The notes under the pieces are model-generated. The model did no database searches. It was given only the letters and a program-made list of their open reading frames with translations, and had not been told where the DNA came from. A DNA stretch of 64,000 nt from Tateyamaria sp. Alg231-49 (GTDB lineage: Bacteria > Pseudomonadota > Alphaproteobacteria > Rhodobacterales > Rhodobacteraceae), in assembly GCF_900143535.1 (NCBI RefSeq), contig NZ_FRFA01000001.1, positions 101,552 to 165,551 on the forward strand. Direction: 5' to 3'. Position numbers and translations under genes: made by a program. Shown here piece by piece: positions 22,225 to 39,335 of this stretch; the stretch's first letter is position 1; the number at the start of each line of letters is the position of its first letter.

Positions 22225-23271
22225 ATGGCCGAAATTCAGCTACGCAACATCAACAAGCGCTGGGGAAGTTTCGTGGGGGTCGACAACTTTGACCTGACAA
22301 TTGCTGATCAGGAATTCCTCGTGTTGCTGGGCCCTTCAGGCTGTGGAAAGACCACGACGATGCGCATGATTGCGGGCCTTGAGGACGCAACAGAGGGCGA
22401 CATTGTGATCGACGGCAAGCGGGTCAACGATCTGGACCCCAAAGACCGCGACGTGGCGATGGTGTTCCAGTCCTATGGTCTCTATCCGCACCTCAACGTC
22501 TACGAAAACATCCGCTTTCCGCTGAAGGTGCGCAAGGCTGATCCAGCCACCCATGACGAACGTGTGCGACGGGCCTCTGCCATGGTCGAGCTCGATGAAT
22601 TTCTGCACCGCAAGCCCGCTGAGCTTTCTGGTGGTCAGCGCCAGCGCGTCGCTCTTGCCCGAGCGATTGTGCGCGAGCCGAATGTGTTCCTGATGGATGA
22701 ACCACTCTCCAATCTGGACGCCAAGCTGCGGGTCTCTACTCGGGCCCAGATCAAGAACCTAAGCCACGAATTGAAGGTCACGACAGTTTACGTGACCCAC
22801 GACCAAATCGAAGCGATGACATTGGCCGACCGCGTGGTTGTCATGAAACAGGGCAAGGTCCAACAAGTGGGTACCCCAACTGAAATCTACGACAACCCGG
22901 CCAACACTTTCGTAGCAAGCTTTATCGGCTCACCTGCAATGAACCTGATGGACGGCACAATGGCGGGCGGCACATTTACCGGCGACAAGGTCAAGATCAG
23001 CGGCCTTGGCGTGCCCGACGGGCCTGTCACCTTGGGGTTCCGCGCCGAAGACGCTGCATTGGCTGAAGCCGACGGCCAGATCAACGCACCGATCTACACA
23101 ATCGAACTGTTGGGAGACGCCACCATGCTGACGGTCCGTGCGGGCGGACAATTGGTTTCGGTCAAGGCGCACAAGGAATTCCGGGCAGAGATAGGCGACA
23201 TGATCTCCTTCTCGATCCCGAACACGATCTGTCACGCATTTGACAGTACGTCAGGCGAACGCCTCGGCTGA
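22225..23271 (+). CDS. ABC sugar-type importer ATPase (MalK/UgpC family)
   Basis: A 348-residue ATPase with Walker A GPSGCGKTTTMRM, the Q-loop in MVFQSYGLYPHLNVYEN, signature [16 protein letters not shown], Walker [16 protein letters not shown] and the H-loop in [16 protein letters not shown]-terminal OB-fold (TOBE) domain from about residue 240 is typical of MalK/UgpC ATPases. It powers the permeases encoded at 24883-27062, with a binding protein encoded in between. It is the first gene of a 17-kb co-directional run and follows a palindromic operator candidate. Confidence 0.93.
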   Translation: MAEIQLRNINKRWGSFVGVDNFDLTIADQEFLVLLGPSGCGKTTTMRMIAGLEDATEGDIVIDGKRVNDLDPKDRDVAMVFQSYGLYPHLNVYENIRFPLKVRKADPATHDERVRRASAMVELDEFLHRKPAELSGGQRQRVALARAIVREPNVFLMDEPLSNLDAKLRVSTRAQIKNLSHELKVTTVYVTHDQIEAMTLADRVVVMKQGKVQQVGTPTEIYDNPANTFVASFIGSPAMNLMDGTMAGGTFTGDKVKISGLGVPDGPVTLGFRAEDAALAEADGQINAPIYTIELLGDATMLTVRAGGQLVSVKAHKEFRAEIGDMISFSIPNTICHAFDSTSGERLG

Positions 23272-23373
23272 CATGACACCCCGTTGTCCCCGGGGGCACC
23301 CGGGCAGCGGGCAATCCAAGTTGGTGCAGGCTTGCAAGGTGCACTGACAAAAAACGCAACAGGGAGTTTGCAC

Positions 23374-24594
23374 ATGTATCTTAAGAAACTGGCACTGGCG
23401 GGCGCTGTCTCGCTTATGGGCACATCCGCGTTCGCGGCGTGCTCTTACGAAAACACGGTGCCGCTGAAATCGCTGAGCGCTGGATTTGAAGCGTGGAAAG
23501 CCGTCACAGACGCCATGGCCGAGTGCGGGAATTTTAAGGCCGAGCTTGATCAGGAATTCCGCACCAAGCAGCCTGCTGCCTTTGAGGCGAACCCATCACT
23601 TTATCACATCGGTGGCGTATCCAACGGCACCGTCACACCGTTGCTGAACGCAGGCACGATCCGCCCACTGGACGATCTAGTGGCCAAGTATGGTCAGAAC
23701 CTGTCGCCCAACCAGCTAATCAAAGTTGACGGCAAGACCATGGCGATTGCCATGATGGTCAACACCCAGCACCTGATGTACCGCGAAGATATCTTCAACG
23801 ATCTTGGCCTTGAAGTGCCCACCACATGGGACGAAGTGTTCGCTGCCGCTGAAACTATAAAAGAGGCCGGTGTTGTTGACCACGCCATCGGTGCCACGAT
23901 GAAATCCGGCTGGAACCTCGCGCAGGAATTCGTGAACATGTATCCGGCCTTTGGTGGTGCGTTCTTCAACGCAGACAACTCTGCCGCAGTGAATTCCGAG
24001 GCGGGTATGAAAGCCCTGGAAACATTGGCGAAAACGCTTCCATACGCCGATCCAGAGGTGCTCGTCAGCGACTCAACTTACGTGCAACAGCAGTTCCAAC
24101 AGGGCAAAATCGCCATGTCGAACCTCTGGGCAAGCCGTGGCGCTGCCATGGATGACGAGGCCGAAAGCACAGTTGTAGGCAAAGTCAAAATGGCTGCCGC
24201 ACCGCTTGCTATGGAAGGCGGCGCACCTGCCACCACACTGTGGTGGGACGGCATCGTGATCGCGAGCAACATCACTGATGAGGAAGCTGACGCTGCTTTC
24301 CGTCTGGCGATGGAAGGTCTGGACGAGGAAATGGTCAAGGCCAACAACGGAGCCGCGATCTGGCTGGTCAAAGGCTATGAGCCCGGTCCGCTGGCCGCAG
24401 GTGCGATTGCAACGGCCACCGCGTCTCCTGCGGCTCCGCCTTACCCATCGACCACACAAATGGGTCTGATGCACACGGCGCTGGGGAACGAACTGCCTGC
24501 ATTCCTGACAGGGGAACGTGACGCAGCAGCCACGCTTGTCGCGATTGAGGAATCCTACGCCACCGCGGCCAAAGAGGCCGGTGTGCTGAAGTAA
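23374..24594 (+). CDS. ABC transporter substrate-binding protein (family 1, sugar/polyol type)
   Basis: A 406-residue periplasmic protein. The signal peptide is MYLKKLALAGAVSLMGTSAFA, followed by ACSYENT; a lipobox is doubtful because Phe sits at -3. The type I fold is indicated by ALMYRE-like hinge text (QHLMYREDIFNDLGLEVPTT) and TTLWWDGIVIASN. It belongs to the extracellular solute-binding family 1 that binds sugars, polyols and related solutes. The start at 23374 has AGGGAG upstream; earlier in-frame codons do not extend the signal sensibly. A strong stem-loop follows the stop. The ligand is unknown. Confidence 0.9.
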   Translation: MYLKKLALAGAVSLMGTSAFAACSYENTVPLKSLSAGFEAWKAVTDAMAECGNFKAELDQEFRTKQPAAFEANPSLYHIGGVSNGTVTPLLNAGTIRPLDDLVAKYGQNLSPNQLIKVDGKTMAIAMMVNTQHLMYREDIFNDLGLEVPTTWDEVFAAAETIKEAGVVDHAIGATMKSGWNLAQEFVNMYPAFGGAFFNADNSAAVNSEAGMKALETLAKTLPYADPEVLVSDSTYVQQQFQQGKIAMSNLWASRGAAMDDEAESTVVGKVKMAAAPLAMEGGAPATTLWWDGIVIASNITDEEADAAFRLAMEGLDEEMVKANNGAAIWLVKGYEPGPLAAGAIATATASPAAPPYPSTTQMGLMHTALGNELPAFLTGERDAAATLVAIEESYATAAKEAGVLK

Positions 24595-24603
24595 GCCACT
24601 TTC

Positions 24604-24634
24604 TTGGCTGGCCGGGGCGTTCCCGGCCAGCCAA
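24604..24634 (+). other. Intercistronic stem-loop after the binding-protein gene
   Basis: TTGGCTGGCCGGG pairs perfectly with CCCGGCCAGCCAA around a 5-nt loop, with no T-run. In ABC operons such stems protect the binding-protein mRNA and lower expression of the downstream permeases. A similar structure follows ugpB at 59235-59265. Confidence 0.65.
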
Positions 24635-24652
24635 TCCAAACACTGGGATGTC

Positions 24653-24886
24653 ATGCAAACTGAATTCGATCATATCGTTCTGGGCGGTGGCTCTGCTGGA
24701 TGCGCGGTTGCTGCGCGTCTTGCCGAACAACCGAACGCACTGGCGGGAATGCCGCCGGCCCGATTGCGGCATCCGCGTCGACCAAGCGTAATCTTTGACG
24801 CCAACACCAATGCCCCATCCATGATGATCGGTTGGCAGAGCAGGGGCCATAAGCCCGCTGCCACCCACGAAAGGACTGCAGCATGA
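24653..24886 (+). pseudogene. Internally deleted GMC oxidoreductase relic, still in frame
   Basis: A 77-codon frame begins MQTEFDHIVLGGGSAGCAVA, the FAD-binding start of glucose-methanol-choline oxidoreductases. It soon passes into RLRHPRRPSVIFDANTNAPS and MMIG, which matches the family's C-terminal end (RLRVHG...GNTNAP-type motif). A normal member has over 500 residues, so some 450 codons are missing, yet both ends share one frame. The relic keeps an ATG and a TGA that overlaps the permease start as ATGA. It cannot be an active enzyme. It may persist only to couple translation of the permease. The parent enzyme probably oxidised an alcohol imported by this transporter. Confidence 0.75.
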
Positions 24887-25911
24887 AGTTCAAGACATTC
24901 TTCTGGTTCGTCGCGCCGTCGGTATTCATGATGCTGCTCTTTATCGCAGCGCCACTGGTTTCGGTTTTCATCCAGTCCTTTCAGGTGACCCAACCGGTCA
25001 TGCAACAGATCGAGGTGGAAACCTGCACGCCCGGGTTCCTGACACAGACCTGCACCACTGAAATGAAAACAGTGCCAACGATCGACGAAGAGACAGGCAA
25101 GACGATCACGACAACTTCGTGGGTTGGCTTTCAGAGCTACGCCAACGTGCTGCAAATGGACAAGGTTTGGGAGGCGATCAGCAGCGGCGCTGTCGGTGAC
25201 ATTCTGCAGATCGACTTCTGGAAGGCGCTGCGTTTCACCCTGATGTTCACGCTGTTGACGCTGCCGCTGGTGATCGGGGTCGGGCTGATGATTGCGCTGG
25301 CAGTCAACAATGCAGCCAAGGCATTCAAGGGCCCCATAATCTTCGTCTCCCTTCTGCCCTTTATTATCACGCCGGTGATTGGGTCACTGTCGATCTACTG
25401 GCTTTTTGTGGGCGACGGCATCCTGACGGCAACGCTGGAACGCTGGACCGGGCAGGACATTGCAATGTTCGCTCAGGCTTGGACAATTGAACTCCTGATG
25501 TACTTTTACCGCGTCTGGCACGTGGCACCCTTTGCTTTCGTGATCTTCTATGCGGGCCTGCAAACCGTGAATATGGACACGCTGGAGTCCGCCATCATCG
25601 ACGGGGCCAGCAGGTTTGAGCGCCTGCGGTACGTGATCGTGCCGCACCTGATGCCGCTGATCATCTTCATCGCGCTGATCCACTTGATGGACTGCTATCG
25701 GACGTTCGAAGAAATCGTCGGCTTCCGCTCTCAGGCGCACGTGATTTCGCTACAGTGGCTCACCTATGACTTCATGGTGCCGGATGATGCGGGCAACCGT
25801 GCGATTAGCCGGGCGTCGGCCTCGGCCATGCTGACCATGATCGGGATCGTTGTTCTGTTGATCCTGCCGTTGCGCCGCACATGGCGTGACCACAAAGGGG
25901 GGGCACACTGA
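24883..25911 (+). CDS. ABC importer permease (MalF/UgpA-like)
   Basis: A 342-residue inner-membrane protein with about six helices and the ATPase-coupling EAA loop ESAIIDGASRFERLRYVIVP. Between the first and second helices there is an extra periplasmic segment of about 60 residues. It contains two cysteines (CTPGFLTQTC) that could form a disulfide and a Thr-rich stretch, and is unusual for UgpA-type permeases of about 300 residues. It overlaps both the GMC relic and the next permease by a few bases. Confidence 0.88.
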   Translation: MKFKTFFWFVAPSVFMMLLFIAAPLVSVFIQSFQVTQPVMQQIEVETCTPGFLTQTCTTEMKTVPTIDEETGKTITTTSWVGFQSYANVLQMDKVWEAISSGAVGDILQIDFWKALRFTLMFTLLTLPLVIGVGLMIALAVNNAAKAFKGPIIFVSLLPFIITPVIGSLSIYWLFVGDGILTATLERWTGQDIAMFAQAWTIELLMYFYRVWHVAPFAFVIFYAGLQTVNMDTLESAIIDGASRFERLRYVIVPHLMPLIIFIALIHLMDCYRTFEEIVGFRSQAHVISLQWLTYDFMVPDDAGNRAISRASASAMLTMIGIVVLLILPLRRTWRDHKGGAH

Positions 25912-27062
25912 TGTCAAAGGCAACCGCACAACCGCTTTCGCTCAAAGTTGCATCGGGCGCATTCCTCGCCTTCTGGTGCTTGCTGGCGGCCTTCCCAATC
26001 GTGTGGATCGCGGTGATGAGCGTCAAATCCCCGCGCGACGCCTTTGCGGCGAGCGCTTGGGACGTCATCACCGGGCCTGCGACCCGGGCTGCTGGCACCG
26101 GGCTGTCGATCATCGACATCGTGCTGGGGCTGGCATTCCTGTTCTTTGCGATCCGCTGGGCCTTTACGGGCCTGCCAAAACTGGTTGAGCGGTTCTCTCC
26201 TCCGGGGCTGATCGTTGTGGGATGGCTGGTCGGCGCGGCCGTCTTTGGCCTCGCATTCGTGCTGGTCTTTTTTGGGATATTGCCGCCGGTATTCGGGGTG
26301 ATCAATTCGATCCTTGGACCCATTGGCGAACCGATCATTGGGCTTACGACCGAACACTATCAGGCTGTCTGGGGCGAAAACCAGTTCTACCGCAACTTCA
26401 TGAACTCGATGATTGTGACGGCTGGCGTGGTTTTGATCTCTCTTACCGTGGGGACGCTGGCAGGCTATGGGCTTGCGCGCTCTGGTTCGAACCTCGCCTT
26501 TTGGCTTTTGATCCTCGCTCTTGTTTTCCGCGCACTGCCGCATTCGGTTCTGGTGGCGGGGTACCTGCCGTGGTTCATCAATTCCGCTGAAATCCTGCGG
26601 CCCATCTTTGGGGACCTCTCGCCAACGCTCTACGGGCAACCCTGGGCGGTGATCGCGGTGCTTGTGTCTATCAACCAACCGTTCACGATCTGGATGCTGC
26701 GTAGCTTCTTCCAGAACATTCCTTCCGAACTGGATGAGGCCGCACGGGTGGATGGATGCAGCCACTTCCAGGCCTTCCGTCGCGTGATCATGCCGGTCAT
26801 GTGGCCGGGGGTGATCACAACGGGCCTGTTCTCGTTCCTCTTGGGCTATAACGACTTCCTTGTGACCTCTCTGCTTCTGGATGCACAGAACCAGACGATG
26901 GTTCCCGCCATCGCGGGCTACTTCAACCGTGAAACCACAACAACAGATCAGGTCGAGGCGGTGGCGGCGGCGGTGTCGATCACAGCGCCTTTGTTCTTGC
27001 TTGTGATGGTGTTCCAGCGCCAGATCGTGAGTGGGCTTACGGCGGGGGCCGTCAAAGGCTGA
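25911..27062 (+). CDS. ABC importer permease (MalG/UgpE-like) with N-terminal insertion
   Basis: A 383-residue permease, about 100 longer than typical MalG-type proteins. After the first helix (residues about 12-35) there is an insertion with two further hydrophobic stretches (IIDIVLGLAFLFFAIRWAF near 63-81 and GLIVVGWLVGAAVFGLAFVL near 98-117). The normal core starts about residue 150 (NFMNSMIVTAGVVLISL). The EAA loop is ELDEAARVDGCSHFQAFRRV. The final segment ends FQRQIVSGLTAGAVKG. It pairs with the preceding permease. Confidence 0.88.
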   Translation: MSKATAQPLSLKVASGAFLAFWCLLAAFPIVWIAVMSVKSPRDAFAASAWDVITGPATRAAGTGLSIIDIVLGLAFLFFAIRWAFTGLPKLVERFSPPGLIVVGWLVGAAVFGLAFVLVFFGILPPVFGVINSILGPIGEPIIGLTTEHYQAVWGENQFYRNFMNSMIVTAGVVLISLTVGTLAGYGLARSGSNLAFWLLILALVFRALPHSVLVAGYLPWFINSAEILRPIFGDLSPTLYGQPWAVIAVLVSINQPFTIWMLRSFFQNIPSELDEAARVDGCSHFQAFRRVIMPVMWPGVITTGLFSFLLGYNDFLVTSLLLDAQNQTMVPAIAGYFNRETTTTDQVEAVAAAVSITAPLFLLVMVFQRQIVSGLTAGAVKG

Positions 27063-27094
27063 TGGTTTCTTCTGACCCAAAATACCACGGGGTC

Positions 27095-27111: not shown

Positions 27112-27141
27112 CCTGTTCTCAAAAATCAAGGATGACGTTGC

Positions 27142-27678
27142 ATGAAAGGGTCTCGCCCCGAACAAGCCGTGCTGACACGCGACACGGATCTCAGCAAAAC
27201 AGACGAAACCCGCGCTGTGATCGAAGGGATGGTGGACGGCCTCAACGATCACCGCATTGATGATATTGGCCAGTTCTTTGCCGAAAGCTTTCTCTGGATG
27301 GGCAATCAGGGCTGCGGGACCAAGACCGGGTTGCAAGAGTTTCAGGACAACTGGCAGCGCCCGTTTCAGGCCGCCTTCAGCGACAAGGTCTGTGTGGACG
27401 AGGCGCGCCTTTATATGGGCGAATGGGCCGCAGCCTTTGGACGGCAAGAGGCAACGCATTCGGGTGACTTCATGGGGGTCGCCCCCACGGGCAAGCGGAT
27501 CGACATCCGCTACATGGATTTCTGGAAAGTCGAAGACGGGCGGATCACCGACAACTACGTCATGGTCGATTTCCCGCATGTGCTGGCCCAGCTTGGGGTT
27601 GATGTTTTCAATGGTGAGGGATGGGAGGCGTTCGATAATGGCGACAGGGTCGCGCCCCGCCCCTCAGGGATGAGGTGA
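27142..27678 (+). CDS. SnoaL-like (NTF2-fold) protein, single domain
   Basis: A 178-residue protein with the SnoaL/ester-cyclase pattern: helix ([17 protein letters not shown]), then strand-rich regions such as [20 protein letters not shown]. It closes with [20 protein letters not shown], a motif also found at the end of the proteins encoded at 29078 and 30085. SnoaL-like proteins act as cyclases, isomerases, dehydratases or hydrolases on small carbonyl compounds. AAGGA precedes the ATG. It is the first enzyme-like gene after the importer and lies 4 bp before the dehydrogenase gene. The reaction is unknown. Confidence 0.82.
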
Positions 27679-27682
27679 CGAA

Positions 27683-29011
27683 ATGACAATTGAGTATTTG
27701 AAAACCGGGAAGCCGGAAACGGAGCGGGACGCAGACGATGCCAAAACGCGTGCGATCGTTGAGGCGACTCTGGCGGATATCGCGGCACGCGGCGACGTGG
27801 CCGTGCGCGAATTGTCGGAAAAGTTCGACAACTACTCGCCGCCTGCGTTCAAACTGTCGGCCGAAGAGATCGACGCGTTGATCGCGCAACTGACCCCGCG
27901 CGAGCTGGAGGACATCCGTTTCGCCCAAGAACAGGTGCGCAATTTTGCTAAGGCCCAGCGTGACTCGATGCTCGACATCGAGGTCGAAACGATGCCGGGT
28001 GTGATCCTCGGTCACAAGAACATCCCCGTGCAATCGGTGGGGTGTTACGTGCCGGGTGGCAAGTTCCCGATGGTCGCATCCGCCCATATGTCGGTGGCAA
28101 CGGCCAGTGTCGCTGGCGTCCCACGGATCATCGCCTGCACGCCCCCGTTTCAGGGCAAACCCAACCCGGGTGTAATCGCGGCCATGCATATGGGCGGCGC
28201 GCACGAGATCTACGTGATGGGTGGCATTCAGGCGATCGGCGCGATGGCTTTGGGCACCGAAACGATTGAACCTGTGCACATGCTCGTTGGACCCGGCAAT
28301 GCCTTTGTGGCAGAGGCCAAACGGCAACTGTTCGGCAAGGTGGGCATTGATTTGTTCGCCGGGCCGACCGAGACGATGGTGATCGCGGACGATACGGTGG
28401 ACGCTGAAATGTGTGCCACCGATCTCTTGGGGCAGGCCGAGCACGGGTATAATTCTCCGGCGGTTCTGCTCACCAACAGCCGCAAGCTGGCCGAGGCGAC
28501 GCTGGTCGAAATTGACCGCATTCTGACCATCCTGCCGACCGCCGACACTGCATCGAAGTCGTGGGAGGACTATGGCGAGGTAATCTTGTGCGATACCTAC
28601 GACGAGATGCTGGAAGTCGCAGACGACATCGCGTCGGAGCATGTGCAAGTGATGACCGATCGCGATGACTGGTTCCTCGAGCATATGACCTGCTACGGCG
28701 CGCTCTTCCTTGGTCCACGCACCAACGTGGCCAATGGGGACAAGGTGATCGGAACCAACCACACGCTGCCAACCAAAAAAGCGGGGCGGTACACGGGCGG
28801 TCTGTGGGTCGGCAAGTTCCTCAAGACGCATTCCTATCAAAAGGTCACAACAGACGCGGCGGCTGCCGAAATCGGCGCCTATGGTTCGCGCCTGTGCATG
28901 CTCGAAGGGTTCGTGGGCCATGCGGAGCAGTGCAACCTGCGTGTGCGCCGCTACGGCGGTGTGAACGTGCCTTACGGCACTGGTGCCCCAGCGCGGGATG
29001 CTGCGGAGTAA
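27683..29011 (+). CDS. Histidinol-dehydrogenase-family NAD-dependent alcohol dehydrogenase (HpsN-like)
   Basis: A 442-residue protein of the HisD family. Visible features are the NAD/active-site region [35 protein letters not shown], the zinc-ligand pair in [33 protein letters not shown] and a C-terminal [14 protein letters not shown]. HisD enzymes oxidise an alcohol in two steps to a carboxylate. The context has no histidine genes but an importer, SnoaL proteins and an SDR, so it is probably a catabolic member like the sulfopropanediol dehydrogenase HpsN. Its exact substrate is not known. GAGGTGA precedes the ATG. Confidence 0.85.
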
Positions 29012-29077: not shown

Positions 29078-30088
29078 ATGGGGACCGACATCAATCAACG
29101 CAACAAGACGAAGGCACTGACACTTTGGGCGGAACTTGACCGCGACCCGAACAGTGCGTTGGCGTTGCTGGACAAGGTCAAGCAGTGGCAGGGACCCGAA
29201 CCCATTGGCATCCACAGCAGCGGTGCGGGCATCGTTGCTGCGATGTTTGCCCCCCTGCGGGCCGCCATCCCGGATTTGCAGCGCCAGACTCATATCCTGA
29301 TGGGCGGTCAGTCTTCGGCCCATGAAAGCGGGCAGGGGGATGGTGCGTGGTGGGTCGCCGGCACGGGCTACTACACTGGCCGCGCCAGCGCGGACGTCTT
29401 TGGCATTCCGGCAACGACGCGCGAGCTGCGCATTCGCTGGGGTGAATTTTTGCGCTTTGATGCTGACGGGCAAGTGACACATGCCCAGACCATCTGGGAT
29501 TTTGTCGATTGGTTCGAACAGATTGGACTGCCCATCCTGCCGCGCCCGAACGGGGCCTCGCATGTCTACCCGGCCCCGACGGGCTATGATGGAGTGCTGG
29601 CTGATGCACAAAGCGTCAAAGAGACCGAGCAAAGCATGGGGTTGGGTCGGGCGTTGATCTTTGGGGGGCTCAACACGTTTGACGAAAGTGATCTCTCAAG
29701 CATGGGCATGGCCCGATTTTTCCATCCCAACATCAAATGGTATGGCCCCGGCGGGATCGGAGCCTGCCTGTCATTGCACGAGTTCGAAACCTTGCACCAA
29801 CGCCCGTGGCTGACAGCCTTTCCTGACCGCAAGGTGATGCATCTGGAAAGCCTCTTTGCAGAAGGCCGCATGGTCGCCGCGTCCGGACCCAAGGGCGTGG
29901 TCGCGACACATACCGGTCCTTATTTGGGCCAGCCTGCCAGTGCTGCGCATCTGGAGGTCTCGGGCCTTGATTTCTGGCTGCGCACTGGCGGGCAATTCAC
30001 CGAAAACTGGGTGTTCGTGGATATGATCCATCTTTTCGCACAGATGGGTATCGATCTGTTTGCGCGGGCTAAGGGGCATTGGCCATGA
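29078..30088 (+). CDS. Two-domain SnoaL-like protein
   Basis: A 336-residue protein with two NTF2-like halves (about 1-160 and 180-330). The second half contains FFHPNIKWYGPGGIG and ends with ENWVFVDMIHLFAQMGIDLF. Both motifs recur in the next protein, showing tandem duplication. A conserved tyrosine/glycine run (GTGYYTGRASADVFGIPAT) resembles GGYYTGTFQHPWLDIPAT in the neighbour. No signal peptide is present. It overlaps the next gene by ATGA. Likely a small-molecule cyclase, isomerase or dehydratase; the reaction is unknown. Confidence 0.8.
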   Translation: MGTDINQRNKTKALTLWAELDRDPNSALALLDKVKQWQGPEPIGIHSSGAGIVAAMFAPLRAAIPDLQRQTHILMGGQSSAHESGQGDGAWWVAGTGYYTGRASADVFGIPATTRELRIRWGEFLRFDADGQVTHAQTIWDFVDWFEQIGLPILPRPNGASHVYPAPTGYDGVLADAQSVKETEQSMGLGRALIFGGLNTFDESDLSSMGMARFFHPNIKWYGPGGIGACLSLHEFETLHQRPWLTAFPDRKVMHLESLFAEGRMVAASGPKGVVATHTGPYLGQPASAAHLEVSGLDFWLRTGGQFTENWVFVDMIHLFAQMGIDLFARAKGHWP

Positions 30089-31892: not shown

Positions 31893-32911
31893 TGGGCAAA
31901 AAGGTAACAGCATTGGACGTGGCGGAACGGGCGGGTGTGTCGCGCTCGGCTGTATCTCGGGTGTTCACGCCGGGTGCTTCTGTGTCCGAACGCACGGCCA
32001 AAAAGGTCCGCTCGGCGGCCGAGGCCCTCGGGTATCGCCCCAACGTACTAGCGCGCTCCCTGATCACCGGTCGCTCGCGCATTATCGGTCTTCTGGTCGC
32101 CTATCTCGAAAATCAATTCTATCCCGAAGCCATCGAACGGCTCAGCCACGAGTTGCAAAAGCGGGGCTATCACGTTCTCGTCTTTATGGCTGCGAACTCC
32201 GGCGAAGAGGCGGACGAGGTGATGGAAGAACTGCTCGACTACCAGGTCGATGGGATCATCGCGGCCTCTGTCGGAATGTCCAATGATCTGACGCGTCGAT
32301 GCGAGGCCGCAGGCATCCCGATTGTGCTGTTCAACCGCGCGCAGGATGATGATCGCCTCTCTGCTGTGACATCTGACAACTACCACGGTGGGCGCAAGCT
32401 GGCTGAATTCCTCGTCGCGGGCGGGCACGGCCGCATCGCCCATATCGCCGGTTGGGAAGGGGCCTCAACGCAGCGGGACCGCGAGGCGGGGTTCGTTGCG
32501 GGGTTGAACGCAGCAGGCCAGGGCCTGTTCGCCCGCGCCGTCAGCGATTTTCAGTTTGAGCAGGCCAAGGCGGTCGCGCGCGACATGTTTTCCGCAACCG
32601 ATATTCCTGATGCGGTGTTCTGCGCGAATGACCACATGGCCTTTGCGGTCATGGATGTACTGCGTTTCGAACTGGGGCTTTCTGTTCCGGGTGATGTGTC
32701 TGTCGTGGGGTACGACGACGTGACGCTTGCCGCTTGGCCCAGCTATGACCTGACCACAGTGCGCCAGCCTGCCGGGCAAATGGCGCAAGCCACTGTGGGT
32801 ATCCTGATGGATCGCCTGAGCGATCCCGACACCAAACCGCGACGCGTTGCGCTCGACGGTCCCCTGATCATTCGCGGCTCTGCCCGCATTCCCAAAGGAT
32901 GGACCTCATGA
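31892..32911 (+). CDS. LacI-family transcriptional regulator
   Basis: A 339-residue regulator. The N-terminal HTH and hinge are VTALDVAERAGVSRSAVSRV and YRPNVLARSLITGRS; the periplasmic-binding-protein-like sensor fills residues about 65-335, with AVFCANDHMAFAVMDVL and VGYDDVTLAAWPSYDLTTVR. It should bind a sugar- or polyol-like inducer and probably controls this gene run. The palindrome at 22141-22160 is one candidate operator. It overlaps both neighbours, so it is co-expressed with its targets. Confidence 0.92.
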   Translation: MGKKVTALDVAERAGVSRSAVSRVFTPGASVSERTAKKVRSAAEALGYRPNVLARSLITGRSRIIGLLVAYLENQFYPEAIERLSHELQKRGYHVLVFMAANSGEEADEVMEELLDYQVDGIIAASVGMSNDLTRRCEAAGIPIVLFNRAQDDDRLSAVTSDNYHGGRKLAEFLVAGGHGRIAHIAGWEGASTQRDREAGFVAGLNAAGQGLFARAVSDFQFEQAKAVARDMFSATDIPDAVFCANDHMAFAVMDVLRFELGLSVPGDVSVVGYDDVTLAAWPSYDLTTVRQPAGQMAQATVGILMDRLSDPDTKPRRVALDGPLIIRGSARIPKGWTS

Positions 32912-33876
32912 AGGGTTTTTCGAACCGGTGGAAAGATTTCCCCGACTACATCATCGGCATCACCAAAGAGATATGGGAAGACCGCGGCATCGCGACACTG
33001 CACCATTACTACAGCCCCGACATTGTGGTGCGTTCGCCCGGAAGTGTGGTGATCGGGAACGAAAAAGTCATCGGGGCGACAATGGCCACGCTTGCGGAAT
33101 TCCCTGACCGTACTCTTTTGGGGGAAGACGTCATTTGGTCCGGCACCCCGGAAGAGGGCATGTTGTCGTCCCACCGCATCCTGTCGACAGCGACGCACAC
33201 GGCCGACGGCGTCTATGGGCCTGCATCTGGCAAGAAGCTGCAATACCGGATCATTGCCGACTGCCACGCGATCAACAATCAAATCAACGATGAATGGCTG
33301 ATCCGGGATCAAACGGCGGTCGTGAACCAGATCGGCTGGGACGCCAAGGAATACGCCGCCGACCTCATTGCACGCGAAGGCGGACCAGAAAAGGCAGTGC
33401 GCCCGCTGACCCCTGCAACAGATCAGCCCGGGCCCTACAAAGGACGTGGCAACGACAACGCATGGGGCGAGAAATACGCCGACATCCTCACGCGGATCAT
33501 GGGCGCAGACATGGCAGTGATCCCTGCCGAATATGACCGTGCCGTGCAGTCTGAATACCCCGGTGGCACCACAGGGCACAGCCATGGTCCGGTTGATCGG
33601 TTCTGGATGGGCCTGCGCGCGTCTTTCCCGGATGCAACCTTTACCATCGACCACCAGATCGGGCGCGACGATGATCATATGCCACCCCGCGCAGCGATCC
33701 GCTGGGCGCTGCACGGCAAACATGACGGCTGGGGCTACTTTGGCGCGCCGACAGGGGCAGAGGTTTATGTGCTGGGCATCAGCCATGCCGAATTCGGCCC
33801 ATGGGGTCTGCGCCGTGAATTTGCACTGTTTGATGAAACTGCGATCTGGAAACAGATCTTGCTTCAGACAGGATAA
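32908..33876 (+). CDS. SnoaL-like protein, divergent two-domain type
   Basis: A 322-residue protein from the ATG at 32908, overlapping the LacI stop; an ATG three codons earlier is less favoured. The first half shows the SnoaL pattern (YIIGITKEIWEDRGIATLHH then YYSPDIVVRSPG) and the second half GHSHGPVDRFWMGLRASFPD. It lacks the NWVxVD C-terminal motif of the other three, ending REFALFDETAIWKQI instead, which matches a different SnoaL subgroup. It probably performs another step of the same pathway. Confidence 0.78.
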   Translation: MKGFSNRWKDFPDYIIGITKEIWEDRGIATLHHYYSPDIVVRSPGSVVIGNEKVIGATMATLAEFPDRTLLGEDVIWSGTPEEGMLSSHRILSTATHTADGVYGPASGKKLQYRIIADCHAINNQINDEWLIRDQTAVVNQIGWDAKEYAADLIAREGGPEKAVRPLTPATDQPGPYKGRGNDNAWGEKYADILTRIMGADMAVIPAEYDRAVQSEYPGGTTGHSHGPVDRFWMGLRASFPDATFTIDHQIGRDDDHMPPRAAIRWALHGKHDGWGYFGAPTGAEVYVLGISHAEFGPWGLRREFALFDETAIWKQILLQTG

Positions 33877-33962: not shown

Positions 33963-34577
33963 ATGCAACGCTATGACGAATTGATGTTCACACCCGCCGT
34001 GCAAGCGCTTCAAGACGTCGAGGGCACGCGCGAGATGTATGCCCGCAACTACGGTGCGCGCACGCGACCACTGGGCGCGGATGACATCGCGTTCATTACC
34101 AGCCGAACCTCCTTCTACATGGCCAGCGTCTCTGAAACTGGCTGGCCTTACATCCAGCACCGGGGCGGTCCCGTGGGATTCCTTCAGGTGCTTGACGATC
34201 ACACGCTCGGCTTTGCCGATTACAAAGGGAACAAGCAGCATATCAGCCATGGCAACGTGGACCATGACGACCGGGTGTCGCTGTTCCTGATGGACTACCC
34301 GCGCAAGGCCCGCATGAAGCTGCAAGGTCACGCCACGTTCCAAAACGCAGCCGATAATCCTGACCTCGCCGCACGCCTGACCGTTGAGGGTCAGGGACGT
34401 GTAGAACGCCTCGTGACCATCAAACTGGCCGCCTTCGACTGGAACTGCCCGCAATTCATCACGCCGCGCTTTGACAGTGCAGAGATTGCGCAACTGGTTG
34501 GCCCGGAAATGGACAAGCTGAGCGCACGCATCCAAGAACTCGAGGCTGAAAACGCGGCACTGCGAGGGCAGGGATGA
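33963..34577 (+). CDS. Pyridoxamine 5'-phosphate oxidase-family flavoprotein
   Basis: A 204-residue split-barrel protein of the PNPOx-like family. FMN-binding features are FITSRTSFYMASVSETGWPY, HRGGPVGFLQVLDDHTLGFA and DRVSLFLMDYPRKARMKLQG. A short coiled-coil tail (DKLSARIQELEAENAALRG) follows residue 180, suggesting oligomerisation. True PdxH function is unlikely, because the vitamin B6 residues are not evident; a flavin reductase or heme/flavin-linked oxidase is more plausible. AAAGGGAT precedes the ATG. It couples to the next gene by ATGA. Confidence 0.83.
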   Translation: MQRYDELMFTPAVQALQDVEGTREMYARNYGARTRPLGADDIAFITSRTSFYMASVSETGWPYIQHRGGPVGFLQVLDDHTLGFADYKGNKQHISHGNVDHDDRVSLFLMDYPRKARMKLQGHATFQNAADNPDLAARLTVEGQGRVERLVTIKLAAFDWNCPQFITPRFDSAEIAQLVGPEMDKLSARIQELEAENAALRGQG

Positions 34578-35104
34578 CAGACATCTACCGCGCCGCAGAA
34601 CGACTGATGGGGATGCAAGACGCTGATTGGCAGCGCCATGCAAACCCGCTCAGCGTCTGGTCGCGGTTCACCTGCCTGCCACTGCTGACGTTCGCGATCT
34701 ACGCGCGCCAATGGATCGGTTGGTGGTCGCTGCCATTGTTTATGCTGGCGTGCCTCTGGACTTGGGCAAATCCGCGGGTCTTTCCAGTGCCGTCAGACTT
34801 TGGGTCGTGGGCGTCGCGCACCACGTTGGGCGAACGCATCTTCCTTGCCCGAGACCGTTACGACATCCCTGATCACCACATTCGTGCCTCTCATGTGCTG
34901 ACAAGCCTTTCAGCCCTCGGCCTTGCGCCCCTCGCATACGGCCTGATCGTGCTTGACCCGTATGCCGTTCTGGCAGGGCTTGTGGCCATCATCCTGCCAA
35001 AACTCTGGTTCTGTGATCGCATGGTCTGGATCCACGCGGAAATGACCGGGACAACACCCGGAACACCTCTCTCAACACCCCTGATGCCCCCCGAAAGGAC
35101 CTAA
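34574..35104 (+). CDS. Integral membrane protein, DUF6653-like
   Basis: A 176-residue protein with about four hydrophobic segments: two around LPLLTFAIYARQW and WWSLPLFMLACLWTW, two around ALGLAPLAYGLIVLD and AVLAGLVAIILPKLWF. The conserved text HANPLSVWSRFTCLPLL and DRMVWIHAEMT resembles the DUF6653 family. No catalytic motif is visible. Coupled to the flavoprotein gene and 4 bp before the cupin gene. Role unknown. Confidence 0.65.
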   Translation: MTDIYRAAERLMGMQDADWQRHANPLSVWSRFTCLPLLTFAIYARQWIGWWSLPLFMLACLWTWANPRVFPVPSDFGSWASRTTLGERIFLARDRYDIPDHHIRASHVLTSLSALGLAPLAYGLIVLDPYAVLAGLVAIILPKLWFCDRMVWIHAEMTGTTPGTPLSTPLMPPERT

Positions 35105-35108
35105 GCCC

Positions 35109-36074
35109 ATGACCCCCGCCGAGATGGAGCCGCGCATTGTGCGTTACGGCGATCTGATGCCCTGCAAGACCGCGTTCATCGACGCACATACGCCGGGCAG
35201 TGATCAAAAGGAAAACTTCACCATCATTGGTGGCGGAGTCTCAGAGAGCGCGGATCAGCACGTCCACATCTCCATCCCGCATGGCTTTAATATTGGGGCG
35301 GCAGGGCAACCGCCCAAATGCCGCAACTCGCTGCACAGCCACCGCACGGCTGAGGTGTTCTTTGTGCTGTCGGGTCGTTGGCGCTTTTTCTGGGGCCGCT
35401 GGGGAGATGCGGGCGAGGTGGTGCTGGAAGAGGGCGACATCATCAACATCCCAACCGGCATCTTCCGCGGGTTTGAAAACATCGGCACCGACTACGGGAT
35501 GATCATGGCGATCCTTGGTGGTGATGATGCGGGCGGTGGTGTCATCTGGGCGCCCCAAGTGATCGAGGATGCCGCCGATCACGGGCTGATGCTGGGCGAA
35601 AACGGCAAGCTTTATGATACCAAGCAAGGACAGGCGCTGCCCGATGGGGTGAATCCGATGCCAACCCTGACCGAGGAAGAATTGACCGAATACCCCGAGA
35701 TGACGCCGATGCAGGTCGTCGGCATGGGGGTGCGCCGCTACAACGACATGATGGCGCTAGGCCAGCACGCGCCCTGCAAGGTGATTGGCGAAACAGGCAT
35801 CATTCGCGACAAACCGGGGTTCGAGGTGGACCTGATCACCCGGGGCAGCGCGACCAAAGAGATGCACCAACACGACCGCCCCTCGGTCCTCATGCCGATG
35901 CGCGGCCATTGGCGTGTGACGTGGCAGGGTGGGGCAACAACGCTTGCCCCCGGCGACACGATGAGCGTGCCCGAGAACATCCCTCACAGTGCGGTTCCTT
36001 CAATGACAGGTGAGGCGTCGCTGTATCACATCGTCGCAACGGATGACGCAGCAGGGCCCACATGGATGGGCTAA
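35109..36074 (+). CDS. Bicupin metal-binding protein
   Basis: A 321-residue protein with two cupin barrels. The first has NSLHSHRTAEVFFVLSGRW, giving two His and a Glu as metal ligands, and GDIINIPTGIFRGFENIG. The second has KEMHQHDRPSVLMPMRGHW and a final His in PENIPHSAVP. Bicupins include dioxygenases, isomerases and oxalate decarboxylases. Both sites look intact. It acts in the cytoplasm, as no signal peptide is present. AAAGGA precedes the ATG. The substrate is unknown; a role in the surrounding pathway is inferred from position. Confidence 0.82.
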   Translation: MTPAEMEPRIVRYGDLMPCKTAFIDAHTPGSDQKENFTIIGGGVSESADQHVHISIPHGFNIGAAGQPPKCRNSLHSHRTAEVFFVLSGRWRFFWGRWGDAGEVVLEEGDIINIPTGIFRGFENIGTDYGMIMAILGGDDAGGGVIWAPQVIEDAADHGLMLGENGKLYDTKQGQALPDGVNPMPTLTEEELTEYPEMTPMQVVGMGVRRYNDMMALGQHAPCKVIGETGIIRDKPGFEVDLITRGSATKEMHQHDRPSVLMPMRGHWRVTWQGGATTLAPGDTMSVPENIPHSAVPSMTGEASLYHIVATDDAAGPTWMG

Positions 36075-37063
36075 GGGCAACCCTTTGCGCCCTCGTGTTG
36101 GCGACACCTGTGCATGCGGGTTGGGTCGCGCGCACGGCGGATGATGGCGCGCTTTTCTACGGGTTCGCGGTGGCCGAGGGCACAGGGCTTGCCGTGCGCT
36201 GCAACGGCCCCTCGCGCCAAGGGCTGCCCGTGGTGAGCGTCGGCGCCCACGAAGAGGCGCGCACAGACCCGTTCCATTTGATCTACAGCCTGCGCCCACC
36301 ACTGATGGAGGCACCCGCCACGGGGTATCAGCGCAGTGATGTGGTGATCTGGTCGGGCGGCACGGGCTACCGTCTGCCGCCAACCATCTGGAACGAACTT
36401 GACGGTGAATGGCAGGTGCAGGTGGGCATGACGGATGCACTGTCCCTGTCGCTGATGACATCGGCGGATGTTGTCGTGGGGCCAGAGGCCGGGCCACATA
36501 CCCGCGTTACAACCGACCAAATGAACCAATCGGTGGCCGAAGCGATGGCGTTCTGTGTTGCGGAATACCGCCGCGCGGGCCTGCCAGCCCCGGCGCCGCT
36601 GGATCAATTCTGGCCACAAGCGAACAACAGCCTGCTGGCAGACGATACTGCACCGACCATACCTGATGGTATGGTCGACTACGCCCGCGCGCATATCCGC
36701 GATGGTTGCTCCGGACCGGCGCAAATCGACGACAGCGCGATCCTTCTGGGCGAGATTGACGGCGACGGGCAGGAAGACGCAGTGGTGAACTGGGGCCGCA
36801 TTACCTGCACCCAAGGGCTACCCCGCCCGTTTTGCGGGGCATCCATGTGCAGCGCAGATGTGTACCTGTCCAGCGCATACGCGCGCATTGGCGGCCCACT
36901 CAACCTGCTCGCGCTCGGCGTTCAACTGCAACCGCTCACCAATGGCCTGCAAGGCGTCTCGCTGGGTGGGTCTCTTTCAATGTGCGATGCGGCAGGGCAA
37001 ACAGGCGGGGCCTGCAACTTTATCTGGTATTGGAACGGGGCTGAACTGGTGCAACTGAAATGA
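36062..37063 (+). CDS. Secreted hypothetical protein with calcium-loop-like motif
   Basis: A 333-residue protein starting MDGLRATLCALVLATPVHAG, a signal peptide. The mature part has a segment EIDGDGQEDAVVNWGRITC similar to DxDGDG calcium loops of FG-GAP/EF-hand proteins. It contains several cysteines (GASMCSADVY, LSMCDAAGQTGGAC) suited to disulfides in the periplasm. The start lies 13 bp inside the cupin gene. It overlaps the methyltransferase gene by ATGA. I do not recognise the family. Confidence 0.65.
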   Translation: MDGLRATLCALVLATPVHAGWVARTADDGALFYGFAVAEGTGLAVRCNGPSRQGLPVVSVGAHEEARTDPFHLIYSLRPPLMEAPATGYQRSDVVIWSGGTGYRLPPTIWNELDGEWQVQVGMTDALSLSLMTSADVVVGPEAGPHTRVTTDQMNQSVAEAMAFCVAEYRRAGLPAPAPLDQFWPQANNSLLADDTAPTIPDGMVDYARAHIRDGCSGPAQIDDSAILLGEIDGDGQEDAVVNWGRITCTQGLPRPFCGASMCSADVYLSSAYARIGGPLNLLALGVQLQPLTNGLQGVSLGGSLSMCDAAGQTGGACNFIWYWNGAELVQLK

Positions 37064-37686
37064 GCGAACTCGATCCCCTCGCGGATGAAACCCAAGCCAT
37101 CTATGAGCGGCAAGCGGCACGCTATGATGCCAACCGGTCGCGCGCATTGTTTGAGGCGCGATGGCTGGCGCGATTTGCGGCCAGCCTCGCGCCGGGTGCG
37201 CATGTGCTTGATCTGGGATGCGGAACCGGCGAACCAATCGCGCGTTGGTTCATGGCTGAAGGGTTCAAAGTCACCGGCGTCGATTTCGCGAACGCGATGC
37301 TCGACATTGCCCGCAGTCGTTGGCCAGATGGGGATTGGCGCGATGGCGACATGCGCACCCTCGATCTGGGGCAGACGTTCGACGGGATCATCGCGTGGAA
37401 CAGCTTTTTCCATTTGCGGCCCGACGAACAACGCGTTTGCATCGCGCATCTGGCAGACCATCTTGCTCCGGGCGCGCCATTGATGCTCACTGTCGGCCCG
37501 CGTGCAGGCGAAGTCAGCGGAACCGTGGGCGAGGACACAGTTTACCACGCGTCCCTGTCCCCGGCAGGCTACGCGTCCTGCCTCGAAGCGCACGGCCTGC
37601 GCCTCACCGGATTTCTGGCCGAAGACCCAGAAGCCAATGAACACAGCGTGCTGATGGCACGCAAAGACCACGATCAGGAGACTTAA
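37060..37686 (+). CDS. Class I SAM-dependent methyltransferase
   Basis: A 208-residue methyltransferase with motif I VLDLGCGTGEPIARWF, motif II GVDFANAMLDIARSRWP, DGDMRTLDLGQTFDGIIAWN and LAPGAPLMLTVGPRAGEV. The N-terminal DETQAIYERQAARYDANRSR helix is typical of small-molecule methyltransferases. The substrate is not evident. It couples to the gene before and is followed by a MetE-like gene, which would be a logical partner if the pathway moves methyl groups (inference). Confidence 0.82.
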   Translation: MSELDPLADETQAIYERQAARYDANRSRALFEARWLARFAASLAPGAHVLDLGCGTGEPIARWFMAEGFKVTGVDFANAMLDIARSRWPDGDWRDGDMRTLDLGQTFDGIIAWNSFFHLRPDEQRVCIAHLADHLAPGAPLMLTVGPRAGEVSGTVGEDTVYHASLSPAGYASCLEAHGLRLTGFLAEDPEANEHSVLMARKDHDQET

Positions 37687-37687
37687 A

Positions 37688-38812
37688 GTGACCATTCTGA
37701 CCACCCACGCCGGCAGCCTGCCACGGACCCAAGAGGTCGTGGATTTCATTTTTGCGCGCGAACACGGCAAGGATTACGACCAAGCCGCATTTGATGCGGC
37801 CATGACGGCTGCAGTCGATGTCACGGTGGGCAAACAGGTGGCCGCAGGCGTCGGGATCGTCAGTGACGGCGAGACGTCCAAAATCAGCTACGCGACCTAC
37901 GTCAAAGACCGCTACACCGGCTTTTCCGGCGACAGCCCGCGCAACGCACCTGCCGACCTCAAACAATTCCCCGGCTTCCTCAAGCGGTTGGCAAACGAAG
38001 GCGGCACACCGCAATACGCCCGCCCCATGTGCACGGGCGAGGTCAAGAGCCGCGGACAGGGCGAGTTGGAAAAAGACATCGCAAACCTCAAAGCAGCTAT
38101 GGCCAAGCATGGCGCACCGCGTGGGTTTATGAACGCAGCCTCACCAGGGGTTATCTCTCTGTTCCTGCAGAACGATTTCTATCCAACACGCGACGCATAC
38201 CTCGCCGCTCTGGCCGATGCGATGAAGGCAGAATACGACACAATCATCGCCGCAGGGCTCGATCTGCAACTTGATTGCCCGGACCTCGCGCTCAGCCGTC
38301 ACATGCTGTTCGCAGACCTGTCGGATGCTGAATTCGTCAAGATCGCCGACGCCCATGTGGAGGCGCTCAATCACGCATTGCGCGACATTCCTGCGGAAAA
38401 GGTGCGGGTGCACATCTGTTGGGGCAACTATGAGGGGCCGCACGTCTGCGACATCGACATGGACACTGTTTTCCCGACACTCATGTCCACGCGGGCCTCG
38501 TACCTGCTTTTTGAAACATCAAATCCGCGCCATGCGCACGAATGGACAGTATTCCGCGACCGCAAGGCGGAAATCCCGGACAACAAGGTTCTGGTGCCGG
38601 GCGTCGTGGACACCACCACGAACTTTGTCGAACACCCGCAAGTGGTCTCGCAACGAATCGAACGCTTCACTGACATCGTGGGCAAAGACCGCGTTGTGGC
38701 GGGCAGCGATTGCGGCTTTGGCACTTTTGCAGGCTTTGGCGCGGTCGATCCCGACATCGCCTATGCCAAACTCGAGGCGCTGTCTCAGGGCGCGGGCCTT
38801 GTCTCCGCTTAA
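37688..38812 (+). CDS. MetE-like (cobalamin-independent methionine synthase II family) protein
   Basis: A 374-residue protein of the UROD/MetE-C-like TIM-barrel family, half the size of full MetE. Substrate and metal-site features are THAGSLPRTQEVVDFIF, VSDGETSKISYATYVKDR, VHICWGNYEGPH (zinc His and Cys) and GSDCGFGTFAGFG (second Cys). The MetE N-terminal folate-binding half is absent, so it is likely a catabolic or salvage methyl- or alkyl-transferase using thiol acceptors. It starts with GTG at 37688 after an AGGAG site. Its end overlaps the CIA30 gene. Confidence 0.85.
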   Translation: MTILTTHAGSLPRTQEVVDFIFAREHGKDYDQAAFDAAMTAAVDVTVGKQVAAGVGIVSDGETSKISYATYVKDRYTGFSGDSPRNAPADLKQFPGFLKRLANEGGTPQYARPMCTGEVKSRGQGELEKDIANLKAAMAKHGAPRGFMNAASPGVISLFLQNDFYPTRDAYLAALADAMKAEYDTIIAAGLDLQLDCPDLALSRHMLFADLSDAEFVKIADAHVEALNHALRDIPAEKVRVHICWGNYEGPHVCDIDMDTVFPTLMSTRASYLLFETSNPRHAHEWTVFRDRKAEIPDNKVLVPGVVDTTTNFVEHPQVVSQRIERFTDIVGKDRVVAGSDCGFGTFAGFGAVDPDIAYAKLEALSQGAGLVSA

Positions 38813-39335
38813 GGCGGTCGTCCTGTGCGCGCTGTTGGCGGCCCCGACCCAAGCACAAGAGGCTGATATGAAATTGTCTCCAAACTGGGAGTACGTGGCA
38901 GACACGGTCATGGGCGGCGTGTCCCAAGGCCAAGCACGTCAGGAAACGGTGGCCGGACGAAAGGCCATCCGGCTGACGGGCACCGTATCACTCGACAACA
39001 ATGGCGGGTTTGTGCAGATCGCATTTGATCTGGCCGAGGGACGCGATTTTGATGCACGCAGCTATACTGGGCTGGTTTTCGAGGTGCTGGGCAACGGCGA
39101 AACCTATGATCTGCGATTGCGCACGCGTGCGCTGAATCGTCCCTGGCAATCCTTCCGCACAAGCTTTGTCGCGCCAGCGGAATGGACGGAAGTGCGCGTG
39201 CCATTTGACACGCTCGTTGCCCACAGGACAGATGCGGAATTTGATGCCGCAACTCTGCGTCGCGTTGGTATCCTCGCGATCGGAAAAGTCATGCAGGCAG
39301 ATATTTCCCTCTCGGCCATCGGGTTCTATCGCTAG
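38799..39335 (+). CDS. Secreted CIA30-domain protein, probable TTG start
   Basis: A protein of about 178 residues. Reading from the TTG at 38799 gives a signal peptide (LSPLKAVVLCALLAAPTQA, cleavage before QEAD) followed by a CIA30-type jelly-roll: WEYVADTVMGGVSQGQ, IRLTGTVSLDNNGGFVQIAF and TGLVFEVLGNGETYDLRLRT. An ATG at 38868 would remove the signal. The start overlaps the MetE-like gene by 14 bp. CIA30 is named after complex I assembly, but bacterial secreted members probably bind carbohydrate; function unproven. Confidence 0.72.
   Translation: MSPLKAVVLCALLAAPTQAQEADMKLSPNWEYVADTVMGGVSQGQARQETVAGRKAIRLTGTVSLDNNGGFVQIAFDLAEGRDFDARSYTGLVFEVLGNGETYDLRLRTRALNRPWQSFRTSFVAPAEWTEVRVPFDTLVAHRTDAEFDAATLRRVGILAIGKVMQADISLSAIGFYR

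Follow-up and report, generated by a model that had tools for sequence, protein, structure and literature searches.

What might a long run of genes do in which a sugar-type importer is followed by enzymes that have apparently not been described as a pathway? This question was raised by positions 22225 to 39335 of a stretch of 64,000 nucleotides (nt) from the 4.5-Mb genome of Tateyamaria sp. Alg231-49. The whole stretch is called the window here, and coordinates are those of the window. The run encodes, among others, an ATP-binding cassette (ABC) importer, four SnoaL-like proteins, a HisD-family dehydrogenase, a short-chain dehydrogenase/reductase (SDR), a LacI-family regulator, a bicupin, and a MetE-like protein. 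The analysis presented here suggested that the run is very likely a single operon for import and breakdown that is widely conserved and apparently lacks a published description. With roughly even confidence, we propose that this LacI-controlled operon imports a small, non-sulfonated compound that resembles a polyol, a sugar acid, or a lactone and breaks it down oxidatively in steps. The sequence itself shows a single conserved locus with one operator at the head, an importer that is intact, and a HisD-family protein with a metal site like that of HpsN.

Organization and conservation of the locus

The run contains 18 intact genes and one relic, all in one direction; the first-pass annotation of this DNA had counted 17 intact genes. 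Its other structural statements held, namely, that the ends mostly overlap, that there is one relic (identified here as an internally deleted GMC oxidoreductase between the binding protein and permease 1), and that the named families are present; Pfam and NCBIfam agreed on the importer, four SnoaL proteins, HisD, SDR, LacI, PNPOx-like flavoprotein, bicupin, methyltransferase, and MetE-like protein. Specifically, 9 of the 17 neighboring pairs overlap and 3 more are separated by 1 to 4 bases, as computed with the start of the last gene (CIA30) at 38800, although its preferred start is a TTG at 38799. Positions 22225 to 39335 are probably transcribed jointly as one unit.

Genome contigs were scanned with the first SnoaL protein (SnoaL1), which yielded 533 stretches at an E value of 1e-3 or better. 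The best 80 named loci were kept, 60 of which had full 10-kb flanks, and gene presence in these 60 was determined via tblastn. Because the loci were gathered via SnoaL1, the presence of this gene is by construction, and the counts over loci L035 to L139 given below take in some genomes twice. Across the best 80 named loci, SnoaL1 was 83 to 93% identical to that of the window; the closest named relatives were Tateyamaria, and the records included SAR116, Geminicoccus, and Rhodospirillaceae metagenome bins. Nine plasmid records matched, Ensifer among them.

The same 12-gene order (ATPase, solute-binding protein, permease 1, permease 2, SnoaL1, HisD, SnoaL3, SDR, LacI, SnoaL4, cupin, and MetE) was present in 47 of the 60 loci. 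Thirteen loci were exceptions: five lacked only MetE within the stretch, two had a duplicated SnoaL4, and six differed more. L111 retains SnoaL1 and LacI alone, L126 the importer, SnoaL1, and LacI, and L127 the importer, SnoaL1, and HisD. Gene by gene, SnoaL1 was found in all 60 loci, the ATPase, binding protein, each permease, LacI, and SnoaL4 in 59 each, HisD in 58, the cupin in 57, SnoaL3 and the SDR in 56, and MetE in 52. The accessory genes were less regular: SnoaL5 (41 loci), RraA (36), a methyltransferase (24), the PNPOx-like protein (21), an alpha/beta hydrolase (19), a 2-oxoacid dehydrogenase E1 (15), DUF6653 (15), SnoaL2 (14), and an amidohydrolase (13). The RraA and hydrolase counts are low estimates because these genes sit at the far end, where the 10-kb flank often ends.

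The 12-gene order is thus conserved beyond chance as one locus, and the SnoaL/HisD/SDR/LacI order singled out in the first-pass annotation recurs in Rhodobacterales and beyond. Relatives of SnoaL3 at an E value of 1e-20 or better were present in 118 of 295 sampled genomes of the family (the genome itself and paralogs included). SnoaL1 was present in 19 of 385 sampled genomes at the class level (E value of 1e-25) and in 15 of 398 at the phylum level (E value of 1e-20), with the genome itself included in both. A search of the open-licence PubMed Central literature found no paper title on such a locus, in agreement with the earlier statement that no described pathway with this gene set is known.

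A putative LacI operator at the head of the operon

In 85 of 97 loci, the palindrome TTGCA-N6-TGCAA was present no more than 260 bases upstream of the ATPase gene; mononucleotide shuffles gave a mean of 0.02 of 97 loci. The same pattern was found upstream of none of the internal genes scanned: SnoaL1 (0/99), HisD (0/96), SDR (0/87), LacI (0/92), cupin (0/88), and MetE (0/78). With the looser pattern TGCANNCGNNTGCA, the ATPase gene had a site in 91 of 97 loci and SnoaL1 in 1 of 99, and the other five internal genes had none. The site in the window, TTTTGCACAGGTGTGCAAAA (22141..22160, no strand assigned), is one mismatch away from the palindrome of the relatives, TTTTGCACACGTGTGCAAAA, and 0.00 such sites were expected in window shuffles. 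A genome-wide scan found four exact occurrences of TTTGCA-N6-TGCAAA, which are the operon site and three sites with other inner bases; one exact site has TGCACA half-sites.

The operon encodes its own LacI-family regulator (31892..32911; this and all other genes described here are on the + strand), with 48 bits to PF00356 (cut-off 27) and 112 bits to PF13377. A LacI helix-turn-helix protein and a palindromic operator upstream of the operon, the two sequence marks of a LacI-family regulon, are therefore both present. Because the operator is found at the ATPase gene and at none of the internal genes, the intra-operon LacI very likely controls the operon from its head, presumably by binding at 22141 to 22160. 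Elsewhere in the genome, identical LacI-type palindromes, TTTGCAATCGGTTGCAAA, lie 11 kb apart at C23:73686 and C23:84861 (L225), with a LacI relative between them.

The HisD-family dehydrogenase resembles HpsN but lacks its sulfonate-binding histidine

The HisD-family protein (27683..29011; PF00815, 445 bits) had HpsN, a sulfopropanediol dehydrogenase, as its best PDB relative, with 392 bits versus 251 bits for the best histidinol dehydrogenase. According to the HpsN study, His126 binds the sulfonate, is conserved in HpsN homologues, and sets HpsN apart from HisD, and Lys353 contacts the sulfonate (PMC11382572). The His126 site was Met130 in the window protein, Met in all 97 orthologs from L035 to L139, and Leu in more distant SnoaL clusters (L203 to L206). 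Gln248, His251, Glu318, His319, Asp352, Lys353, and His411 (HpsN numbering) were all present in the window protein. Of the 97 orthologs, 96 or 97 retained each metal and catalytic position and 96 retained Lys353 (one row was cut). The equivalent of Lys353 is Lys354 in the window protein, and the true HisD of the same genome (L001) has Tyr there.

In a tree of 45 chosen rows, with an unconverged bootstrap and some branches flagged as long, the window protein fell in a 37-row Met/Leu clade (96/95) beside a 4-row clade of His-bearing HpsN proteins (100/99). Three further Leu proteins, from Roseibium, Martelella, and Novosphingobium, formed another branch. L001 was the far outlier of the HisD-family tree, and the window protein grouped apart from it. 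In addition to this one true HisD, the genome carries two other HisD-family genes with His at the site (L002 and L004).

Two comparisons follow from these data. The hpsRNOUP-suyAB cluster of Cupriavidus pinatubonensis, which contains HpsN and HpsO, and the window locus both combine a HisD-family dehydrogenase with a PF13561 SDR and with transport and regulator genes, and the metal-site and catalytic residues of the two dehydrogenases are the same. However, the window protein has Met for His126 and belongs to a separate clade, and no sulfolyase or HpsP-type family was among the Pfam matches of 22225 to 39335; the locus instead has four SnoaL proteins, a bicupin, and a MetE-like protein. Histidinol dehydrogenases share PF00815, the Gln/His/His/Asp metal positions, and the Glu-His pair with the window protein, but the copy in the same genome is 36% identical and has Tyr where the window protein has Lys, and the window locus contains no other his gene. 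Hence, the window protein appears to be neither a histidinol dehydrogenase nor, by the defining residue, a dehydrogenase of 2,3-dihydroxypropane-1-sulfonate (DHPS), and its machinery looks HpsN-like. The retained Lys353 could still accommodate an anionic group that is not a sulfonate.

The two HisD-family genes of the genome that carry the HpsN motif (PGGRYSHIASA) are located elsewhere, at L156 (C37) and L157 (C31); one is followed by an SDR gene whose product is 38% identical to that of the operon, and a use of DHPS is possible for the two. A further HisD-family branch with the motif PGGR(Y/F)PLLSAP was observed at L211, L214, and L227, whose clusters also contain amidase or ester cyclase genes.

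The importer and an exchanged recognition block

The importer consists of a UgpC/MalK-type ATPase (22225..23271; PF00005, 120 bits; NF008653, 449 bits with a cut-off of 432), an SBP_bac_1 solute-binding protein (23374..24594; PF01547, 78 bits), permease 1 (24883..25911; PF00528, 34 bits), and permease 2 (25911..27062; PF00528, 78 bits). In our reading of the sequence, ATG 23374 is a more likely start of the binding protein than TTG 23284. These are the components of an Ugp/Mal-type importer with two BPD_transp_1 permeases, and we take the Ugp/Mal importers of sugars and glycerol-3-phosphate to be those labelled CUT1. The ATPase is above the UgpC subfamily cut-off, and its OB_MalK domain is barely below its own (26.9 versus 27). 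The binding protein and permeases, in contrast, are far below the equivalog cut-offs, and they come in two exchangeable versions.

A binding-protein match was present in 76 named loci, 45 of which were 60 to 91% identical to that of the window (type A) and 31 of which were from 34% up (type B), with nothing between 46 and 59%; L055 is an example of type A, and L061 and L135 are examples of type B. Both permeases tracked the binding-protein type in all 76 loci. No such gap was seen in the identities of the ATPase (63 to 95%) or HisD (76 to 93%). On a quick tree of the ATPase, SnoaL1, and HisD with 89 rows (84 different; 54 type A and 35 type B), the block type needed 9 changes, 7 of them forced by starred branches, compared to a mean of 27.8 for shuffled labels. 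The binding protein thus changed together with the two permeases as one block, at least 7 times on this tree, a number that transfer of locus parts could inflate.

The nearest PDB binding protein was considered as a guide to the substrate and rejected, as its matches were 62 bits or less. A second sugar-type ABC importer is suggested by matches at 58142 to 62947 of the window (binding protein, permeases, and an ATPase 43% identical).

SnoaL-fold proteins and the remaining core enzymes

Of the four SnoaL proteins, SnoaL1 (27142..27678; PF07366, 69 bits) has a single domain. The other three, with 325 to 351 amino acids (aa), have two SnoaL-like halves: SnoaL2 (29078..30088; profile match; accessory, 14/60 loci), SnoaL3 (30079..31134; profile match; core, 56/60 loci), and SnoaL4 (32899..33876; PF07366, 52 bits; core, 59/60 loci). 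PF07366 was above its cut-off in all four, which places them in the SnoaL/NTF2 fold. The predicted model of SnoaL4 had two SnoaL-type halves (predicted local distance difference test [pLDDT] score of 86); its top Foldseek matches were single-domain proteins, with IdmH as the best.

The best PDB match of the SnoaL1 profile was nogalonic acid methyl ester cyclase (56 bits). We take Asp121 to be catalytic in this polyketide cyclase. Residue 121 aligns with Val140 of SnoaL1, which was invariant in 13 rows, and an invariant Asp126 is located at the SnoaL His107 position; SnoaL1 alone was compared. These differences caution against reading a function into the name "cyclase." The window proteins thus share the fold and a profile match with the SnoaL/IdmH cyclases but differ from them in that three of four are two-domain proteins, the Asp121 site is Val in SnoaL1, and the locus has no polyketide synthase. 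A two-domain SnoaL gene 52% identical to a divergent SnoaL5 of Marinovum is located on another contig of the genome (C15, L155:8161-9168), where it adjoins NtrY-type and other two-component regulator genes.

The SDR (31131..31892; PF13561, 174 bits) had HpsO among its many PDB relatives. The bicupin (35109..36074; core, 57/60 loci) matched PF07883 in two stretches. Its best hit in the PDB was a single match of 18.5 bits and its predicted model was unusable (pLDDT of 46), so the cupin was rejected as a guide to the substrate. In our alignment, its Arg120 is located where the second cupin motif, as we understand it, usually has His. The MetE C-terminal-like protein (37688..38812; PF01717, 38 bits; core, 52/60 loci) scored at best 82 bits against an NCBIfam equivalog cut-off of 406, and its best PDB match was 23 bits. 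Nevertheless, the His-X-Cys and later Cys that we take to be the zinc ligands of MetE are present; these three ligands map to H242, C244, and C342, which were invariant in 10 rows.

Clusters of HisD and SnoaL genes in other settings

Twenty-one plasmid stretches, hand-picked from the listed matches, were opened. A HisD 80 to 84% identical to that of the window was found on plasmids in three settings: beside an SDR, together with TAXI-TRAP importers (Sulfitobacter pontiacus, Alloyangia, Antarctobacter, and Sulfitobacter sp. DSM 110093); in Roseibium and Martelella clusters with a sugar ABC importer, a cupin, a hydrolase, and RraA; and in Rhizobium pRL8 and Ancylobacter, where no SDR adjoins it. 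Adjacent HisD and SDR genes also occurred in a run that begins with a sugar ABC importer, near an iron-chelate importer on the other strand, and with no importer beside the pair. Where an aldolase gene was present in a HisD stretch, it was RraA (annotated once under another name) or HpcH/HpaI. The more distant SnoaL clusters had SSF, TRAP, MFS, or TonB transport genes, and one had an HpcH/HpaI aldolase. The variety of transport genes indicates that the importer is exchangeable. The HisD, SDR, cupin, SnoaL3, SnoaL4, and LacI genes recurred most, though not everywhere; for example, L202 had no LacI match.

A proposed pathway and its alternatives

In the proposed pathway, an inducer would release LacI and the importer would bring the compound in. 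The HisD enzyme might then convert a CH(OH)-CH2OH or CH(NH2)-CH2OH end into the acid by a four-electron, NAD-dependent oxidation, as in HpsN and HisD, and the SDR might oxidize a neighboring secondary alcohol, a role played by HpsO alongside HpsN. The SnoaL-fold proteins could carry out eliminations, isomerizations, or C-C cleavages that are given to dedicated dehydratases in other pathways. In relatives, hydrolases of a lactonase-like kind, together with an aldolase (RraA or HpcH/HpaI), would end the pathway in pyruvate-sized products. The MetE-like step, possibly a methyl transfer to a thiol, is the least certain. A bolder version, which we hold somewhat more doubtfully, is that this is an undescribed pathway in which a third functional class of HisD acts on a non-sulfonated 1,2-diol or 2-amino alcohol, SnoaL-fold proteins replace sugar-acid dehydratases, and the recognition block is swapped to feed different forms of the substrate to the same enzymes.

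The hydrolases of relatives were nearest to lactonase families, all below the family cut-offs: the amidohydrolase was nearest to L-fuconolactonase (123 bits with a cut-off of 400), and the alpha/beta hydrolase was nearest to the PcaD families, also below the cut-off. No kinase or CoA ligase was among the Pfam matches of 22225 to 39335.

Several observations weigh against the proposal. The binding protein has no close characterized relative (no PDB match above 62 bits). Many relatives carry RraA, alpha/beta hydrolase, and amidohydrolase genes that were not found in the window locus, and therefore the last steps must use other genes here; elsewhere in the genome, RraA has a weak relative (31% over 87 residues) and the amidohydrolase one of 32% identity, and the window has two alpha/beta hydrolase matches of 24 to 25%. 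HisD had no adjoining SDR in Rhizobium pRL8, Ancylobacter, and further plasmid stretches, several plasmid stretches with HisD had no aldolase gene, and L195 had neither HisD nor SDR within its 17 kb. In Novosphingobium aromaticivorans pNL2 and in Blastomonas, a 65 to 68% identical HisD (with an SDR) is located among genes of the aromatic-catabolism type. Finally, L193, a 7-kb contig with a SnoaL1 of 50% identity, has a His-type gene of the HpsN clade from position 184 on, beside amidohydrolase, SnoaL, ATPase, and SnoaL1 genes. This speaks for a sulfonated substrate in that lineage; the contig stops just past SnoaL1, and an accompanying Met-type gene would lie out of view. RraA itself was rejected as a member of the pathway in the window, based on its absence there and on the short genome match.

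It is unlikely that the substrate is aromatic or lignin-like and carries a side chain of the glycerol type. In that case, the SnoaL proteins would be formaldehyde lyases or similar enzymes and the cupin would be a dioxygenase, whereas in relatives RraA, the alpha/beta hydrolase, and the amidohydrolase would form the lower part of a ring-cleavage pathway. Gamma-formaldehyde lyases have reportedly been named for aromatic dimers, and we take LsdE and LdpA to be SnoaL/NTF2-like. TonB receptors (L194 and L203) and alpha/beta hydrolases in distant loci, the PcaD-like scores of the alpha/beta hydrolase (below the cut-off), and the N. aromaticivorans and Blastomonas HisD-SDR pairs, which lie amid genes annotated as VOC, as fumarylacetoacetate hydrolase, and as hydroxylase or dioxygenase of aromatics, all fit this idea. 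However, the importer relatives are of the sugar type, no aromatic oxygenase was among the Pfam matches of the window locus, the cupin has Arg120 in place of the usual His, and the amidohydrolase is nearest to L-fuconolactonase.

Catabolism driven by a methyl group, in which the MetE-like protein moves the methyl of an O-, S-, or N-methylated substrate to a thiol and the remainder is oxidized, also seems improbable. The frequency of the MetE-like gene and its invariant putative zinc ligands are consistent with such a role, as is a divergent cluster in a 1.4-Mb genome, near which lie two genes for homocysteine S-methyltransferases and one for a dioxygenase of the TauD type. However, tblastn detected no MetE in the Paracoccus alcaliphilus (L138), Roseibium, and Martelella (L211 and L214) clusters with HisD, cupin, and RraA, only 24 of the 60 loci have the S-adenosylmethionine (SAM) methyltransferase, and the MetE-like protein has no PDB match above 23 bits.

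Breakdown of a sulfonated polyol of the DHPS type, which the first-pass annotation had named among the fitting substrates, is quite improbable. HpsN and HpsO are among the HisD and SDR relatives, the retained Lys353 contacts the sulfonate in HpsN (PMC11382572), and L193 places an HpsN-type gene beside SnoaL genes. Nevertheless, sulfonated polyols are disfavored because the His126 described there as sulfonate binding is Met in 97 of 97 orthologs, the clade is separate from HpsN, and two paralogs with the HpsN motif and His126 are located elsewhere in the genome; the lack of sulfolyase and HpsP-type families among the Pfam matches of 22225 to 39335 points the same way. Breakdown of a sugar or cyclitol, which the first-pass annotation also offered, or of another polyol may still apply. 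A biosynthetic, polyketide-like locus is very improbable and was rejected: the match of SnoaL1 to nogalonic acid methyl ester cyclase is outweighed by Val140 at the Asp121 position, by the lack of any polyketide synthase family among the Pfam matches of the window locus, and by the importer and LacI regulator.

The frequency and strict gene order of this locus point to an ecologically important compound that has yet to be linked to it. If the bolder reading is true, marine Rhodobacterales would have a widespread import route that has gone unrecorded, one with relatives in bins of SAR116 and Geminicoccaceae. The substrate could be sought directly by way of the operator, the importer, and the residue swap in HisD.

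Accessory genes and flanking sequences

The GMC oxidoreductase relic (24653..24847), which lies in a 288-base gap between the binding-protein and permease 1 genes, was delineated via tblastn with the intact gene at the equivalent place, between the binding protein and permease 1, in the same-genus locus L035. It corresponds to residues 1 to 29 (24653 to 24739) and 472 to 490 (24791 to 24847) of the 504-aa protein, with the middle deleted. A GMC match was present somewhere in 12 of the 60 full-flank loci.

The remaining intact genes are accessory. They encode the PNPOx-like flavoprotein (33963..34577; PF01243, 40 bits; 21/60 loci), a DUF6653 protein (34574..35104; PF20358, 173 bits; 15/60 loci), a 333-aa protein that matched no family in Pfam or NCBIfam (36062..37063; 8/60 loci) that is perhaps secreted, based on our reading of its N terminus, the SAM-dependent methyltransferase (37060..37686; PF13649, 63 bits; 24/60 loci), and a CIA30-domain protein (38799..39335; PF08547, 84 bits; 3/60 loci) with a probable TTG start at 38799 and a signal-peptide-like N terminus. 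Upstream of the run, a fused two-part 2-oxoacid dehydrogenase E1 (19909..22065) with counterparts in 15 of the 60 loci is a possible associate; the operator scan detected no site upstream of this gene.

A promoter scan yielded 6 sites with 5.9 expected, and 24 terminator-like sites were found with 16.3 expected. Directly downstream of the operon, positions 39528 to 40418 encode a fusion of an FHA domain with a domain resembling adenylate cyclase.

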